IMG/VR virus record: IMGVR_UViG_3300029908_000173
Coordinates: 1 to 21,016 of that record
Direction: 5' to 3' (one strand)
Origin: a virus
Length of the DNA stretch: 21,016 bases
The position numbers were made by a program, and so were the translations under genes. Below are positions 2,961 to 20,311 of this stretch, piece by piece. Each line of letters opens with the position of its first letter. Positions within the stretch are counted from its first letter, which is position 1. The notes beneath the pieces are model-generated. The model ran no database searches. It saw only the letters and a program-made list of their open reading frames with translations, and was not told where the DNA came from.

Positions 2961-4007
2961 ATGAATATAAAAAATCCACAAACAATATTAAACGGATTAA
3001 CTGATTGTGATTATTCTTTAATCAGCCCATTCTTTTTATACTTAGAATTATTTAAAAAACTTCCAAACAATTTACTTCATACTGACATAGATTGTGAAAA
3101 ATATAAAGAAGAATTTGAAAAAAATCATTTTAAAGAAATAATTGAAAAGAAAACAAGTTGCTATACTAATTTAAAAGATAATGAAGTAATATATAATCAA
3201 ACATATCTTTATGTTTTAAAAAATAAAATAATTGTAACGATAGAATCAAGAACAGTTATAATTTGTTATGATACAAATTTATCTGAAAATTTTTTAAATG
3301 AAGCTTTAAAATTTAGAAAAATAGAAAACAAAACTTCTACAGAAATAGGATTAATTTTATCGGGAAATGGTTTATATGTAAAAACTATTCAAATAAAAGA
3401 AAATAAATTAGACTATTTAAATTATAATCTTGATTTTGAAAAAACAGATTTAGAAATAAAACAAAATCTTGAAGAAGATAAGTTAGGTATCTATCTTTTA
3501 TATGGTGATGCTGGAACAGGTAAAACTTCTTACATAAGACATTTAGCTGGAATTTGTTCAAAAAAATTTTTAATAGTTAGTTCTATATTTTTATCAGCTT
3601 TAGATTCTCCAGAATTTGTTAAATTATTATTAAATAATCCTAATTGTATTTTAATTATAGAAGATGCTGAAAGAATATTAACTTCAAGAGAAGATAACTC
3701 ACATTCTCCTGTTGCAGCATTATTAAATTTATCTGATGGATTTATTGGACAAGCAATAAATTTACAAATTATTTGTACTTTTAATAGTTCTTATAATAAA
3801 ATTGATAAAGCTTTACTTAGAAAAGGACGCCTTATAAAAGCTTATGAATTTAAAAAATTAGAAGTATCTCGTGTAGAACAATTAGCTAAAAAATTAGATA
3901 AAAAAATAAAATCAACTTTTCCAATGTCTTTAGCTGATATTTATAATTTTGAACAAGAACCAACCAAATTAATTGAAACGCGTCCAAAAATAGGATTTTC
4001 AAAATAA
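2961..4007 (+). CDS. AAA+ family ATPase
   Basis: From the ATG at 2961 the protein is 348 residues; from the alternative ATG at 2937 it is 356. I prefer 2961 because it has the AAACCAAA leader seen at other starts and avoids the hairpin. The N-terminal 170 residues are of unknown fold. The ATPase core shows Walker A GDAGTGKT (182-189), Walker B ILIIED (230-235), sensor 1 in CTFN (Asn 275) and an arginine-finger segment LLRKGRL (286-292), very like the LLRPGRL of FtsH, BCS1 and proteasomal ATPases. Such proteins act as ring-shaped unfoldases or remodelling enzymes. No protease domain is fused. Its partner in the phage cycle is unknown; the neighbours are uncharacterised small genes. Confidence 0.8.
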   Translation: MNIKNPQTILNGLTDCDYSLISPFFLYLELFKKLPNNLLHTDIDCEKYKEEFEKNHFKEIIEKKTSCYTNLKDNEVIYNQTYLYVLKNKIIVTIESRTVIICYDTNLSENFLNEALKFRKIENKTSTEIGLILSGNGLYVKTIQIKENKLDYLNYNLDFEKTDLEIKQNLEEDKLGIYLLYGDAGTGKTSYIRHLAGICSKKFLIVSSIFLSALDSPEFVKLLLNNPNCILIIEDAERILTSREDNSHSPVAALLNLSDGFIGQAINLQIICTFNSSYNKIDKALLRKGRLIKAYEFKKLEVSRVEQLAKKLDKKIKSTFPMSLADIYNFEQEPTKLIETRPKIGFSK

Positions 4008-5636: not shown

Positions 5637-6920
5637 ATGAGTAATGAAACAGTAGAAATGGATCTTGAGGTATATACAAATGCATTTATTTGTGGAATAA
5701 AAGATTTTAAAACAAAAAAAGTAAAAAACTTAGAAATTTCAGATGTAATAGATCAACGTCAAGAAATTTATGATTATTGGTCTAATTATGATGGTTATTT
5801 GGTAACATTTAATGGTATTAATTATGACGAAATGTTACTAAAATACTATCTTTCAAACTGGAAAAAATTTAAAGAATTACCAAAAAAAATATTTTTAGCA
5901 AATTTAAAAATGTTTTCAGATAAAGTGATTAATAACGATAGAGATAATAATTGGGAAATATTAAAAACATACGCTTATCAAAAAACAACATGGACTTCTA
6001 TAGACTTGTTTTTATATTGGGCAAAAATGTTGAGAATGTCCAAAAAAATAAGTTTAAAAAGTTTAGGAATACAATTAGGATACCCCGTAGTTCAAGAATT
6101 ACCTTATAAACCAGAAACAATACTTACCATAGAAGAATTATCTAATTTAAGAAATTATAATAACGAACATGATTTAGGTATTTTAGATCTTTTATGTGAA
6201 AAAATGCGTCCAGAAATAAAATTAAGACTGGATATACGAAAAGAATATTCTTTTAACTGTCTTTCTTGGGATGCAATAAAAATAGCTTCAGAAGCATTAT
6301 TAAAAGATTATTGTTTAGAAACAAAACAAGATATTAATACAATTAGAAATAAAAGATTTTTAAAAGAAAATATTTCATTTAAATCTGTTTTATCTGGATT
6401 TGATCCGCAATTTAAATTACCAATTTTTCAAAAATTTTATTCTGATTTATTAAAATTAAATAGTGAAGATAAAGAAACTGAAGAATTTTTTACAAAAGAA
6501 TATCCAATAATAATAAATAACACATCTATTCGACTATCTTATGGAATAGGTGGAATACACACAATAAATGAAAACGAAATTTATCACTCTACTGAAACAC
6601 ATAAAGTAGTAACTTCAGATTTCAATTCTTTATATCCAAATTTAATAATTAATTATGAATGTATAAGATTTTCTGAAGTTTTAAATAGATATTCTACAAT
6701 TAAATCTGAAAGAATTTTAGCAAAAAAAGAAAAACAAAAAGCAAAAGATTTGTTTTTAAAATTAATTTTAAACGGTAGTAGTGGCCTCTTAGATAATCCT
6801 CATTCATGGTTATATTATCCAGAAGGTGCTTTACGATTAAGATTAATTGGACAATTAATTATGACAAAAGTTTTAGAAGTTTGTCTTATAAATAATTGGC
6901 AAGTGCTAAGTATAAACACT
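5637..6920 (+). CDS. Family B DNA polymerase, exon 1 (residues 1-428)
   Basis: The frame runs to a TAA at 6921-6923, which is the first base triplet of a group I intron; the coding exon ends at 6920. The 3'-5' exonuclease domain shows Exo I DLE (9-11) and Exo II FNGINYDE (58-65); Exo III is probably around YNNEHDLGILDLL (174-186), though the usual Tyr-to-Asp spacing is one residue longer. The polymerase domain has the YGIGG link motif (302-306), motif A SDFNSLYP (327-334, catalytic Asp 328) and motif B LILNGSSG (376-383). The exon stops at VLSINT, one residue before the catalytic Asp of motif C, which is the first codon of exon 2 at 7285. With exon 2 the protein is 639 residues, a compact phage replicative polymerase. 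Read without splicing, the product would lack motif C and be inactive. Confidence 0.9.
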
Positions 6921-7284
6921 TAATTTCGTAGGTGTTATAAAATGGGGTGGATTGACGGGAAGTTCCTTAGAGTCTTTTATACTAAACTGTAATTGCAAAA
7001 TTATAGTGGCGAAGTTAATAACTTAGGTATAGTAAAAAATAAAAGAATTGGATAATCCGCAGCCGAGTGTCTGATAAATCAGATAAAGGTTCAACGACTA
7101 CTGGAGAAGTAAATCTTCTTAATTACCAGAATAAGTACCCCACAATAATTAAATACCATCTGTAACGGATGGTTTGGAAATGTCAAATATTTGTTGTAGA
7201 AAAGAACTTTTAAAAGACATTTTTAATTATAAAATTATTGAAGATATAGTCTGATCTCATAAGAAACTATGAGTAACATAAATG
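6921..7284 (+). ncRNA. Group I self-splicing intron in the DNA polymerase gene (364 nt, no endonuclease)
   Basis: Excision joins AACACT to GATGGA, restoring Asn-Thr-Asp-Gly-Ile of polymerase motif C. P1 is exact: exon AACACT (6915-6920) pairs with the guide GGTGTT (6931-6936) and ends in the required U-G wobble at the 5' splice site. The intron ends in G (7284). Conserved core strings are present in order: Q-like AATCCGCAGCC (7054-7064), R-like GTTCAACGACTA (7089-7100) and S-like AAGATATAGTCTGA (7241-7254), followed by a P9 hairpin CTCAT/ATGAG (7256-7260 with 7269-7273). These are the hallmarks of phage group IA introns such as T4 td. A peripheral hairpin CCATC/GATGG lies near 7157-7173. The core is complete, so the intron should be active; it has no endonuclease gene. 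Confidence 0.9.
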
Positions 7285-7920
7285 GATGGAATAGAAGCTA
7301 TTGTACCAAAAAATGAAATTAAAAAATATAAAGAAGCATTAAAAGATGTTGAAAATATGTTTAATTTAGAATTAGAACACGAAACATATAAAAAAATATT
7401 CTACAAGAACATAAATAATTATGTTTGCCAAACTGAATCTGAAAAATTAAAAAAGAAAGGCTTTTTTAAAACAAGAGACGAAATTCCTTTAGGTGATTCC
7501 GTAAATGAATTAGTCGTAGCAAAAGCCTTAGAACAATATTTCATTAATAATATTCCAATAGAAAAAGTAATTTGCAATCCAGATAATTTTGACTTAACAA
7601 TTTATGATTATTGTCAATCAAATAAAATCAGTAAAGAATATGAAGTTTGGTATAATCAAAAAATTGTTCAAAATTTAAACAGATATTATTTTAGTAAACC
7701 AGCACCGTTTTTATTAAAAAGAAAAAAAAATACCGCAATAAAACGAAAATTAAATGCTAACTTTGAACACGTTAATGTTTCAGATCCAGTAATTCTTTTT
7801 AACGAATATCAAAAAAAAGATTGGGAAGATTATAATATAAACTATAATCATTATATCGCTAAAGCAAGACAAATTATAAACGAAATGGAAAATCCCTATA
7901 AACAATTAAGTTTGTTTTAA
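7285..7920 (+). CDS. Family B DNA polymerase, exon 2 (residues 429-639)
   Basis: Continues the polymerase of 5637-6920. The first codon is the motif C Asp (NTDG across the junction, residues 427-430). The ATG at 7282 that seems to open this frame is the intron's last three bases and not a start. Next come the palm and thumb: a likely primer-grip segment KKKGFFK about 50 residues in, then helical and basic regions (FLLKRKKNTAIKRKL). The last five residues, QLSLF, equal the consensus peptide by which proteins bind the bacterial beta sliding clamp, suggesting that the phage polymerase uses the host clamp, as no phage clamp is seen here. The stop overlaps the next start (TAATG). Confidence 0.88.
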   Translation, partial: DGIEAIVPKNEIKKYKEALKDVENMFNLELEHETYKKIFYKNINNYVCQTESEKLKKKGFFKTRDEIPLGDSVNELVVAKALEQYFINNIPIEKVICNPDNFDLTIYDYCQSNKISKEYEVWYNQKIVQNLNRYYFSKPAPFLLKRKKNTAIKRKLNANFEHVNVSDPVILFNEYQKKDWEDYNINYNHYIAKARQIINEMENPYKQLSLF

Positions 7921-15612: not shown

Positions 15613-16774
15613 TGTTAGAATAAAAAAAGATGTTATTACTTCTAGGATTAGTAAAAATATGCAAGATATACAAAAATTAGGTATTAGTGGTATAATTCAT
15701 ACCATTATTACCCCAGTATATCTTGAGAATCTTAATAATTTTATTAATGTTTCTTTTTTAAATGGTAACCAAAGTTATTGTCTTAAATTTAATGAGTTAG
15801 AACTAGTAGAATTAACAGACGAACAACAAAAAATTAATGAAGAGGGTCTTTTGAAAATATATCCACACTATAAATCCTTGATAAATAAACTAGACACACC
15901 AATAAAAGGATGTTTTTTAGATATTGATCCATTTAAAAAAACAGATCTTAATATATATCTACAAACTAGATTTGTTCATGTAAAACAATGTAAAATAGAT
16001 TTTCAAACTAAAAAAATAACAAATGGCGGATATATAAGATACAAACAAGACTGTTGTGATTTTATTAAATCTAATTTTGATTTTTGTTATTATTTTCCTG
16101 AAGTTTATTTGAATTTTTATGGTTATACTCAATATGATTTACACAAATGGTTGCGATTTATAAAAGATCTAGATATAGGGTTTGAATATATATTTGAAGG
16201 CCCAACTACACTACCTAGCTCTTTTGATGCCCTTATGAAATCTAATTTTTTAATGGGAAAAAATTATAATATAATTGGTAGTGCGATTAATTTTGGTAAA
16301 AAAGCTAAATTTTTTGAAATATATGTAACTAATGGTGGACATTCTTGGATGGCTTATATGTATTTACTTTTAATTAGATATATGCACCAAGAAACTAATT
16401 GGCACATACCTGCGTTAGCAATGCAAATAAAACACGAATTAAAAGAAAAAATAACTAATTGGGAAGCTTTGCTTTTAGCACACTATTCTCCTTGTTATTT
16501 ACCTACAAATAGTTTAATCAACTCAAACAATTCAACTTTAGTAGATATATTTGCTTCTAAAACAGAAATTATTACAAAAATTAAACAAAATAAAAAAATG
16601 ATGAGATCATTTGATTATTTTGGTGGTAATTATAGAAATGATGAATATAGTAAATGTCAAAATTTTGCAAATAAACATAGAAATAAATTACAAACATTAA
16701 TGCAAGAAAGAAAATTTGAAGAATGTTTTAATGAACTAAAAAATTTAAAAAATGGAAACAATACAGAAAAGTAA
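15596..16774 (+). CDS. Hypothetical protein of the amidoligase module, 392 aa
   Basis: Starts inside the end of the cyclotransferase gene (17-base overlap) and overlaps the amidoligase by 23 bases, so all three are likely translated together. Residues 1-75 (KYLDNVRIKKDVITSRISKN...FINVSFLNGNQSYCLKFNELELVE) resemble a small SH3-like barrel. The rest is of unknown fold, with a Cys pair (QDCCDF), an aromatic part (FCYYFPEVYLNFYGYTQYDLHKW), a segment EGPTTLPSSFDALMKSN and a C-terminal Asn/Lys-rich helix. I see no ATP-grasp or other nucleotide-binding motif. Its size and position suggest it is a real partner of the ligase, but its role is unknown. Confidence 0.65.
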   Translation: MKYLDNVRIKKDVITSRISKNMQDIQKLGISGIIHTIITPVYLENLNNFINVSFLNGNQSYCLKFNELELVELTDEQQKINEEGLLKIYPHYKSLINKLDTPIKGCFLDIDPFKKTDLNIYLQTRFVHVKQCKIDFQTKKITNGGYIRYKQDCCDFIKSNFDFCYYFPEVYLNFYGYTQYDLHKWLRFIKDLDIGFEYIFEGPTTLPSSFDALMKSNFLMGKNYNIIGSAINFGKKAKFFEIYVTNGGHSWMAYMYLLLIRYMHQETNWHIPALAMQIKHELKEKITNWEALLLAHYSPCYLPTNSLINSNNSTLVDIFASKTEIITKIKQNKKMMRSFDYFGGNYRNDEYSKCQNFANKHRNKLQTLMQERKFEECFNELKNLKNGNNTEK

Positions 16775-17570
16775 AATATTAAATTGGAAAATTGGTGGAG
16801 ATTTTGAAACTTTTTTGCAAGATAAACAAACAAAAAAGATTTATACTGCTGAAGGAATTATTAAAGGTACAAAAAACGACCCTTATCATTTTGACCCAGA
16901 AAATAATTATTATGCAACAAGTCTTGATTGTGTACTTTCTGAATTCAATGTTGAACCTTGTACATCCCCAGGTCAATATTATTTAGCCATACAAAAAGCA
17001 TTAAAATATATTGATTCTATTTTACCACAAAATATGGAAATAGCAACCATTCCTTGTTCAAGAATGGATTACGATCAATTAGTATCAGAAACAGCTAATT
17101 TATTTGGTTGTTCCGTTTCTTATAATGCGTGGAATTTAGAACCTATTCATCCTATACCAACAGGGGATTCTCTTAGGTCGGCCGGCGCCCACATACATAT
17201 AGGATATGATAATCATAATTCAGAAACAAGCATAGAATTAATTAAAGCTATGGATTTATTTTTAGGTATTCCATCAATTTTGATTGAACCAGAAAATGAA
17301 AGAAAACAGGTAGGATATGGTTGTGCAGGTAATTTTCGCTTACAAGATTACGGTGGTGTTGAATATAGGACGCTGTCTTCGCACTTCATATCTACTCAAG
17401 AACTAATAGAATGGATGTTTAGAAATACCGAACGTGCTATTCAATTTATTAATGAAGAAAGAATAAATGAAATAATAAATTTTGGAAACGAAATACAAGA
17501 CATAATAAATAATTCTAATAAAGAATTAGCTAAAGAATTTGTTGAACGCTTTAATCTTGAAATAATTTAA
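16752..17570 (+). CDS. COOH-NH2 ligase (phage amidoligase, type 2)
   Basis: 272 residues of the glutamine-synthetase-like fold. Motifs in order: GGDFETFLQD (15-24, the metal-binding E), SLDCVLSEFNVEPCTS (57-72, acidic D/E of the next metal site), SAGAHIHIGY (143-152, the His-rich strand), ENERKQVGYGCAGNFR (181-196) and GVEYRTLSSHF (202-212, with the EYR signature). This is the pattern of phage COOH-NH2 ligases, which form amide bonds between a carboxyl and an amine using ATP. Natural substrates are unproven for the phage forms; links to cell-wall, peptide or protein modification have been suggested from gene context. The flanking gamma-glutamyl cyclotransferase and hydrolase-like genes make a gamma-glutamyl substrate plausible. 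A GC-rich run lies over codons 142-147. Confidence 0.85.
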   Translation: METIQKSKILNWKIGGDFETFLQDKQTKKIYTAEGIIKGTKNDPYHFDPENNYYATSLDCVLSEFNVEPCTSPGQYYLAIQKALKYIDSILPQNMEIATIPCSRMDYDQLVSETANLFGCSVSYNAWNLEPIHPIPTGDSLRSAGAHIHIGYDNHNSETSIELIKAMDLFLGIPSILIEPENERKQVGYGCAGNFRLQDYGGVEYRTLSSHFISTQELIEWMFRNTERAIQFINEERINEIINFGNEIQDIINNSNKELAKEFVERFNLEII

Positions 17571-18605: not shown

Positions 18606-19157
18606 ATGAACAAACAAATAAATATATATTGTATAAGAAATTCTACAGGTTATGCTCGATGGATACCAAATAAAAATTTTGTAAATACTATTGAAGAAGC
18701 CGATTTAGTAGTTTGTCCAGGAGGAAGTGATATTGACCCAAGAATTTATGGCGAAAATAAAGAACATCCTTATGGCTGGGGTTTTACTAGAATGGAACAA
18801 GATAAAGAATTATTGGATATTCGTAAAGCTATCAGTCTAGGTAAAAAGTTGTGGGGTACATGTAAAGGAATTCAATATGGTTGTGCTGTATCTGGAGGAA
18901 AATTAGTTCAAGATATTTCTCATCCTGGCAGTCATACTATTACAACAATAGATGGTAAAAAATTAAGTGTAAATTCGATGCACCATCAATTATGTTTTCC
19001 TTTTAATTTACCTGAACATAAATATAGAGTATTTGGTTGGGCGGAAAATATATCTTCACACCACGAAAATGGAAACGGTGAAGAAATGGATACTCCTGTG
19101 GAACCCGAAATATTATATTTTCCTGAAACTCAATTTCTTGGTACGCAGTTTCACCCT
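18606..19157 (+). CDS. Class I glutamine amidotransferase / gamma-glutamyl hydrolase-like, exon 1
   Basis: Exon 1 codes 184 residues: VVCPGGSDIDPRIYG (35-49, the oxyanion-type loop of peptidase C26), LWGTCKGIQYG (82-92, nucleophile Cys 86) and the end FLGTQFHP (177-184, catalytic His 183). Read straight on, it meets a TAG at 19158, the first triplet of a group I intron. Exon 2 (20231-20311) supplies the missing Glu to give FHPE, completing the Cys-His-Glu triad; the whole is 210 residues. Members hydrolyse gamma-glutamyl amide bonds (puuD-like or gamma-glutamyl hydrolases) or supply ammonia. It fits beside the cyclotransferase and amidoligase as a hydrolase that removes or edits the product. 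Without splicing it would be inactive. Confidence 0.82.
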
Positions 19158-19312
19158 TAGTCATTTGGGGGTGAAGTAAATAAATAGGATGAATTGCTGG
19201 AACGCTAAAGAGAGATCTAGGCCAATCAGCAGCCAAGCTATCTAGGGATAGATAGAAGGTTCAACGACTAATAGCATACCACTAGAACAGTGATGAAGCT
19301 AACACGAGCGTC

Positions 19313-20092
19313 CTACATATATAATCTTTCAATTAAAAATTGATTTTCAATTAATTGACTATTATTTGCATGAATTAAAAGAGTACTTTTGCAAAAATCA
19401 ATCGCATTAGACACCTCTTGCCATGTTTTATAAGTAGTTTCAATATTATTTAGAACATTAGTAACTTTGATTAAGAATTTTTTAACAGTGATTGGTTTAA
19501 TATTTTCAGGAAATTTATATTTCCATTTAAATCCCCCAGCAGTTTTTTGTCCAGGATTGTTTCTACAAATCTTATAAATTTGTACACGACAAATATTTGT
19601 TTGTCTTGCTGCTTCTGCTACGCTATAGAATTCTTGAATAAAGTTATCTTGTAAATCAAACTGAAGAACAGGAACACCTAAATGTTTGCATATTTCTTTT
19701 TGGTTATTATTTTGAACTCGTCTTTTTGCCTGTTTTCCATTATAACTTAAAGCATTTCTACAAATATTAAATCCCAGATCTCCATAAGGTTGCAATAAAT
19801 CTAAATAGTGTTGTTCACGTATTTTACAGTCGGAAGAAATACAAATCTCAAGAATTTCAAATGTAAACGATTCTTCTCCATATTTATTAAAATAATTTTG
19901 AAGAATATTATTACGATGTTTATTTAATTTAAGTTTTAATAGATGACCATATATTCTACCACGAAATCCTCGTTTATGAATTGGAACATTTATTGAAGCC
20001 GCAGAACCAATATAAATTCTGCCATCAATTAAAGATGTAATTTTATATACACCGTTTTTACCCATTTGATCGTAACTGTAGTTGTGTTTCAT
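19313..20092 (-). CDS. GIY-YIG homing endonuclease, antisense within the intron
   Basis: 259 residues encoded against the direction of the intron and all other genes. The catalytic domain has GVYKITSLIDGRIYIGS (14-30, GVY...YIG), a likely catalytic Arg in FRGRIYGHL (43-51), the helix and strand NKHRNNILQNYFNKYGEESFTFEILE (57-82), and the metal-binding Glu at REQHYLDLL (E93). The C-terminal part has a DNA-binding repeat of the NUMOD type (GVPVLQFDLQDNFIQEFYSVAEAARQT...GGFKWKYKF, 139-194) and another helical Lys-rich region. These enzymes cut intronless alleles so that the intron is copied across. In phages such genes normally lie in the sense direction (as I-TevI in T4 td). It has a promoter-like sequence of its own on the minus strand (20111-20142). 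Confidence 0.88.
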   Translation of the reverse strand: MKHNYSYDQMGKNGVYKITSLIDGRIYIGSAASINVPIHKRGFRGRIYGHLLKLKLNKHRNNILQNYFNKYGEESFTFEILEICISSDCKIREQHYLDLLQPYGDLGFNICRNALSYNGKQAKRRVQNNNQKEICKHLGVPVLQFDLQDNFIQEFYSVAEAARQTNICRVQIYKICRNNPGQKTAGGFKWKYKFPENIKPITVKKFLIKVTNVLNNIETTYKTWQEVSNAIDFCKSTLLIHANNSQLIENQFLIERLYM

Positions 20093-20110
20093 TTCTGGAT
20101 GTTTTATAAT

Positions 20111-20142
20111 AAAATATACGTAGAAATGTTGATATTAACAAA
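20111..20142 (-). promoter_or_regulatory. Promoter-like sequence for the antisense endonuclease
   Basis: On the minus strand TTTG (20142-20139) and TATATTTT (20118-20111) are separated by exactly 20 bases. The second differs from TAnnTTTG only in its last base. The endonuclease ATG (20092-20090) lies 18 bases past it, so the leader would be about 10-14 bases. Confidence 0.5.
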
Positions 20143-20230
20143 TGTGAAAAAAAAATATATGATGATATAGTCTGAACTTATAAGAAATTATAAGATATAT
20201 AGGATAAAGAGCCTATATAATAACAAAATG

Positions 20231-20311
20231 GAAGTGATGGATGTAAATAATCCTACCGTACAGTACTGTATAGAATTATTAAATAAATTTATGGACGATA
20301 AACTATTTTAA
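20231..20311 (+). CDS. Class I glutamine amidotransferase-like, exon 2 (residues 185-210)
   Basis: The 26 codons plus stop continue exon 1 in frame: E185 (the catalytic Glu of FHPE), then VMDVNNPTVQYCIELLNKFMDDKLF, a C-terminal helix as in the peptidase C26 fold. The reading frame meets exon 1 with no base lost or gained when the intron is removed. It is followed 4 bases later by the next gene. Confidence 0.8.
   Translation, partial: EVMDVNNPTVQYCIELLNKFMDDKLF

Follow-up and report, generated by a model that had tools for sequence, protein, structure and literature searches.

The window, by which we mean the whole stretch of DNA analysed, comprises the entire virus record of 21,016 bases and is probably a fragment of a genome. 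Its + strand carries a gene for a class I glutamine amidotransferase (Peptidase_C26) that is split into a 5' exon at 18606-19157 (Pfam Peptidase_C26, 2e-12), with the catalytic Cys in GTCKG and the catalytic His in QFHP, and a 3' exon at 20231-20311 (EVMDVNNPTVQYCIELLNKFMDDKLF, then the stop codon), recognized from the joined frame and from the alignment of homologues, which extends over the junction. The insertion point lies between the catalytic His-Pro and Glu codons; joining 19157 to 20231 yields GTQFHP|EVMD, which restores the His-x-Glu of the catalytic triad at a point where the homologues are continuous. The comparison with intron-less homologues recommended in the initial annotation revealed no intron at the 19157/20231 site in 79 of 80 related amidotransferase loci on viral contigs, the site reading as uninterrupted HPE in 77 of the 80 and as uninterrupted HCE in 2; the sole interrupted locus is L259, described below. 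These intron-less loci belong to homologues with at most 66% identity (the nearest being L383, with 66%) and are not alleles from the same species. From the 79 homologues that read through without the intron we infer that the exons would be joined by self-splicing. The amidotransferase gene (18606-20311) and a COOH-NH2 ligase gene (16752-17570) make up an amidoligase-type cassette, and a related pair of ligase and amidotransferase is found in the crAss-like phage cr108_1.

The interruption, at 19158-20230 on the + strand, is a group I (IA2-like) intron of 1073 nt, identified by the Rfam model RF00028, covariation, the predicted fold and an omega-G at 20230. With the region scanned alone, RF00028 scored 59.8 bits at 19148-19383 (the 5' half, P1 to P3/P8) and 21.8 bits at 20160-20192 (the 3' half, with the P7 3' strand), while Rfam scans of the whole window or of multiple loci miss such split introns because of their speed filters, so that absences in those scans were given little weight. 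Folding of the intron without its P8 insert revealed P1, P3, P4, P5, P6, P7.1/7.2, P8, P9 and P9.1/9.2 (-64.3 kcal/mol, z = -4.9); P7 is absent from this fold because it is a pseudoknot. In 31 related cores P3, P4, P6 and P7 are kept, with standard pairs in 95.1% of the pair cells, and covariation is far above that of shuffled alignments (104 both-side changes vs 31.5) and is abolished when the pairing partners are slid; P3 and P6 covary, while the P7 strands carry no evidence of this kind because they are invariant.

P1 (19149-19176) is formed by the exon sequence UUUCACCCU (19149-19157) and the internal guide GGGGUGAAG (19168-19176), as seen in the sequence and in the fold; it has 9 bp, with the U19157.G19168 pair at the 5' splice site. 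The P3 5' strand UAGGAUG (19185-19191) pairs with the 3' strand CGUCCUA (19309-19315), with both-side changes in 5 of the 7 pairs. The P7 5' strand GACUA (19266-19270, RF00028) pairs with 20168-20172, and between it and the P3 3' strand the predicted fold places two nested hairpins, P7.1/P7.2 (about 19271-19302), which in this position are a mark of the IA2 subgroup. P8 is formed by CAUAUAU (19316-19322) and AUAUAUG (20155-20161), both taken from the fold of the insert-deleted intron, and the 3' part of the intron (20164-20230, RF00028 and fold) comprises GAUAUAGUC, the P7 3' strand, the P9 helices and the omega-G. Thus, by its P3-P9 core, P7 pseudoknot, J8/7, U.G pair and omega-G, the 19158-20230 element is a group I intron, IA2-like, and the complete core and 9-bp P1 noticed in the initial annotation are confirmed by RF00028, covariation and fold.

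Inside the P8 loop, on the strand opposite to the ribozyme and the amidotransferase, lies a homing endonuclease gene (HEG, 19313-20092, - strand) for a protein of 259 aa with a GIY-YIG domain (residues 11-101) and a NUMOD1 region (residues 140-173), recognized by Pfam and NCBIfam models, by a profile match in the PDB and by an orthologue in L259. All other plausible genes of the window are on the + strand, and the gene map thus bears out the orientation initially reported. In 2000 random versions of the intron, resampled at first order (dinucleotides), open runs reached at most 147 codons vs the 259 of the HEG, and each of the three + frames over the same stretch contains 15 to 20 stops. The Pfam matches to GIY-YIG (6.4e-5) and NUMOD1 (7.6e-8) both exceed the curated cut-offs, as does the match to TIGR01453, the NCBIfam group I intron endonuclease family (82 bits, cut-off 56), and a profile built from the two HEG sequences identified the I-TevI catalytic domain in the PDB (1mk0, E 6e-6). 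The G.Y/YIG motif and the I-TevI active-site positions R46, H50, E93 and N109 are kept in both sequences. Judged by motif, active-site positions and DNA-binding region, the product is predicted to be a GIY-YIG homing endonuclease. Comparison with the L259 orthologue gave dN of 0.50, dS of 1.55 and dN/dS of about 0.3, a ratio that is approximate and tells only of protein constraint because dS is near saturation; the second codon position is the most conserved. This pattern of substitutions indicates that the antisense frame is under purifying constraint.

L259 is an IMG/VR contig from a different dataset (3300033562), retrieved with a pattern from the P6/P7 region of the window. Its amidotransferase shares 39% amino acid identity with that of the window (53% for the exon DNA). 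The gene is split at the corresponding point between codons, QPHP|EMMR; the intron found there has a core with 86.5% identity to that of the window and, in its P8 loop, the antisense GIY-YIG/NUMOD1 orthologue (46% amino acid identity over the whole length). The two introns are identical from P7 via P7.1/7.2 and P3 to the HEG stop codon, and in both the TAG stop (CTA on the + strand; 19313-19315 in the window) ends P3, while the last HEG codons provide the P8 5' strand. The 3' end of the HEG would therefore be dual-coding, since its stop and last codons also form the P3 and P8 helices. The amidoligase-type cassette of L259 (2189-4194) has, next to the amidotransferase gene, genes for a gamma-glutamyl cyclotransferase, an ATP-grasp-like protein and a probable ligase.

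The L259 layout bears directly on a misassembly that would have inverted the HEG segment, the event that the initial annotation named as a possible refutation. The P8 arms do form an inverted repeat that flanks the HEG and through which such an inversion could have arisen, yet at 7 bp this repeat is not long enough to confuse an assembler, and the same orientation recurs in an independent contig from another dataset; an inversion is thereby excluded in practice, and we assign this explanation a negligible probability. The recurrence also means that the arrangement has persisted, and the comparison of the two sequences argues that the antisense layout is a conserved design rather than an accident, and not a recent one.

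The relatives of the HEG and of the intron core tell how the two components may have come together. The nearest annotated HEG relatives are from crAss-like and other Bacteroidota phages, mostly with 26-39% identity over the catalytic domain, and searches of plasmids and genome contigs revealed no close relative. In a tree of 44 HEG relatives the window and L259 antisense genes form one clade (support 98/88); the tree includes several intron-borne relatives, which are in sense wherever the orientation is readable, and many other HEGs that are apparently free-standing. The nearest ribozyme cores, with 76-83% identity to the cores of the window and of L259, are those of L292 (near 3860, + strand), L263 (near 5974, - strand) and L258 (near 5935, + strand). 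They lie in other genes, which in L292 encodes a PolA-like polymerase and in L263 an AAA-type ATPase, have short P8 loops and carry LAGLIDADG-like or NUMOD1-like frames just upstream of P3. These different HEG-like frames 5' of P3 suggest modular exchange of HEGs, with the antisense HEG as one acquisition.

Could the HEG then be an independent passenger, i.e. a gene of free-standing type that came to lie in the P8 loop of an intron without an ORF, with its target elsewhere or in the intron itself, and with no homing of the intron? Three HEG relatives with 44% identity over the catalytic domain (L001-L003) do lie outside any detected intron, HEGs evidently come and go within this ribozyme lineage, as the short P8 loops and the other frames 5' of P3 illustrate, and an antisense insertion needs no coordination with intron folding. 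However, two diverged phages have both intron and antisense HEG at one and the same codon boundary, and in each of them the termini of the HEG correspond to the ends of P8, which would be expected if intron and HEG moved as a unit. We therefore consider the passenger explanation distinctly unlikely.

Several candidates for further antisense cases among the HEG relatives were rejected. L304 appeared antisense by motif, but its intron halves are in sense, and several antisense P7 matches proved to be the reverse complement of a sense 3' half (AUAGUCUGAAC). The GIY-YIG gene of Flavobacterium phage FpV4 (L014, 2435-3202) is opposite to its neighbours, like the window HEG, but no group I intron was detected around it and it looks free-standing; the same is true of the GIY-YIG gene of Methanobacteriales virus vir323 (L016, 2429-3367). 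In the crAss-like phages, unlike in the window, the GIY-YIG genes that we inspected share the strand of the adjacent phage genes.

The frequency of the arrangement was estimated from 270 introns with both core halves, collected by three pattern scans of viral contigs and from loci already fetched. In 43 of these the P7 strands are separated by more than about 330 nt, a set that covers P8 inserts; 40 of the 43 carry a sense ORF, one (L211) has no ORF, and two (the window and L259) carry an antisense gene, the sample not being random because it was a window-derived pattern that led to L259. Used alone, the two general patterns yielded no antisense HEG from viral contigs. As a group, the sense ORFs match the LAGLIDADG, GIY-YIG, HNH, Vsr-like and endonuclease VII families. 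An apparent second antisense insert, in L063, was discarded as its antisense frame is spurious and its sense frame is an HNH-type endonuclease, and L297, found by the P3-stop signature, was a chance match within a coding region. Antisense HEGs in phage group I introns are thus real and rare, as the initial annotation had held.

A leftward promoter is required because the amidotransferase pre-mRNA cannot supply the HEG message. The apparent promoter of the initial annotation withstood the analysis in part: a scan for sigma-70-type promoters was at chance level (13 found vs 13.7 expected) and hence uninformative, whereas a Bacteroidota-type motif, TTTG-N20-TATATTTT (20111-20142, - strand), stands out 18 nt before the HEG start (chance 0.006). 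The Bacteroides consensus has TTTG around -33 and TAnnTTTG at -7 (PMC7366714); in the -7 element of the window T replaces the final G. L259 has TTTG-N19-TATCTTTG 19 nt before the HEG start (chance 0.002; both chance values refer to composition-matched sequence), and both motifs are situated in the part of the P8 loop that separates the HEG start from the P8 3' strand. The motif is not common upstream of the other genes of the window. A Shine-Dalgarno-like motif was found in none of the 28 window genes and the upstream regions contain 56% A; together with the crAss-like amidotransferase-ligase pair, these features indicate that the host is probably a member of Bacteroidota.

The search for a leftward terminator found none, so that leftward RNA could reach the complement of the ribozyme 5' half. 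The earlier suggestion that the HEG mRNA is complementary to the intron core holds for the last codons and the stop, which overlap P8 and P3; otherwise the complementarity is mainly to the P8 loop insert. How strongly splicing would be hindered, and whether the core would be blocked directly, depends on the extent of leftward transcription. The lack of a detected terminator would also suit a dying element, in which the inverted HEG has lost its expression and is degenerating, but the frame of 259 codons is intact in two lineages despite near-saturated synonymous change, and the residues at the I-TevI positions and the promoter motif are kept, which makes decay very improbable. A further proposal is that the layout is a selected regulatory device, in which an early HEG transcript from a host-type promoter would precede amidotransferase transcription and delay splicing, and the later sense pre-mRNA would anneal to the HEG mRNA and silence it; we regard such a role as conceivable but unlikely.

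The most probable interpretation, which we hold with considerable confidence, is that of a mobile group IA2-like intron with an antisense HEG, kept in at least two diverged phages; it would spread by homing of the ordinary, endonuclease-driven kind, and a leftward promoter of its own would drive the HEG. The ribozyme would be transcribed rightward with the amidotransferase mRNA and, as its structure suggests, splice out to restore the His-Pro|Glu site, and the GIY-YIG endonuclease would be transcribed leftward from the host-type promoter predicted in the P8 loop. The enzyme would cut intron-less amidotransferase alleles of co-infecting relatives near the QxHP|E codons, and repair of the break would copy intron and HEG into the cut site; cleavage and copying are suggested by the protein family and by the patchy distribution of the intron. 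Insertion of the HEG, in its present orientation, into the P8 loop of a pre-existing intron probably preceded the split of the two phage lineages, or alternatively the whole element may have moved between them long ago. Expression from its own promoter would remove the usual competition between translation and folding of the intron, at the cost of an mRNA complementary to part of that intron.

Among the closest known systems is the phage T4 td intron with I-TevI: the td intron belongs to group IA2, and the two systems have in common a GIY-YIG catalytic domain, a phage protein gene as host and an IA2-type intron. I-TevI, however, is in sense orientation, whereas the window HEG is antisense and preceded by a leftward promoter motif of its own. 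In the papers searched, antisense intron HEGs occur solely in nuclear rDNA introns, which agrees with the initial annotation: Dir.S956-2 of Didymium iridis (I-DirII) and Dsq.L2066 of D. squamulosum (I-DsqI), expression having been shown and for I-DsqI cleavage as well (PMC9548176, PMC3679873, PMC3073962). As in our case, these HEGs are opposite to ribozyme and host gene, with a promoter of their own reported or proposed (PMC9548176, PMC3679873, PMC3073962). These systems are otherwise different: they are eukaryotic rRNA introns, that of I-DsqI with an IE core and a His-Cys enzyme encoded in P9, a spliceosomal intron and polyadenylation, in contrast to a phage protein gene, an IA2-like core, a GIY-YIG/NUMOD1 enzyme encoded in P8 and a Bacteroidota-type promoter motif. 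In every respect tested the element thus conforms to GIY-YIG group I introns; its strand layout and proposed expression logic are those reported elsewhere for rDNA introns of eukaryotes, mainly of slime moulds. A term search found no phage intron HEG described as antisense in the 2010 T4 review (where free-standing segD is the sole antisense mention), the 2014 reviews of bacterial group I introns and of homing endonucleases, the 2025 Bastillevirinae paper and the 2025 group I intron database paper; the gene described here is probably the first from a phage, subscription literature lying outside the search.

Phage intron endonucleases are usually discussed as translated from an RNA that must also fold and splice. 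The conserved antisense case suggests that phage introns can assign the two tasks to opposite strands, in the manner of some nuclear rDNA introns, and it offers a bacterial system in which the cost and timing of complementary transcripts may be measured. Introns of this kind will be overlooked or misinterpreted by pipelines whose annotation presupposes sense HEGs.

A second group I intron of the window, at 6921-7284 (364 nt, RF00028 53 bits), is apparently HEG-less and splits a DNA polymerase B gene (5637-6920 and 7285-7920) at SINT|DGIEA; its 3' part (7231-7273) is 84% identical to the 3' part of the amidotransferase intron. Two or three such group I introns occur close together on single contigs in L063 (7422-7834), L127 and L213, with two cores within 400 nt in L063. 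Finally, the two intron-less amidotransferase loci with HCE instead of HPE at the insertion point (L384 and L385, 57% identity, match end near 3040-3118) could exemplify a change that protects the homing site.
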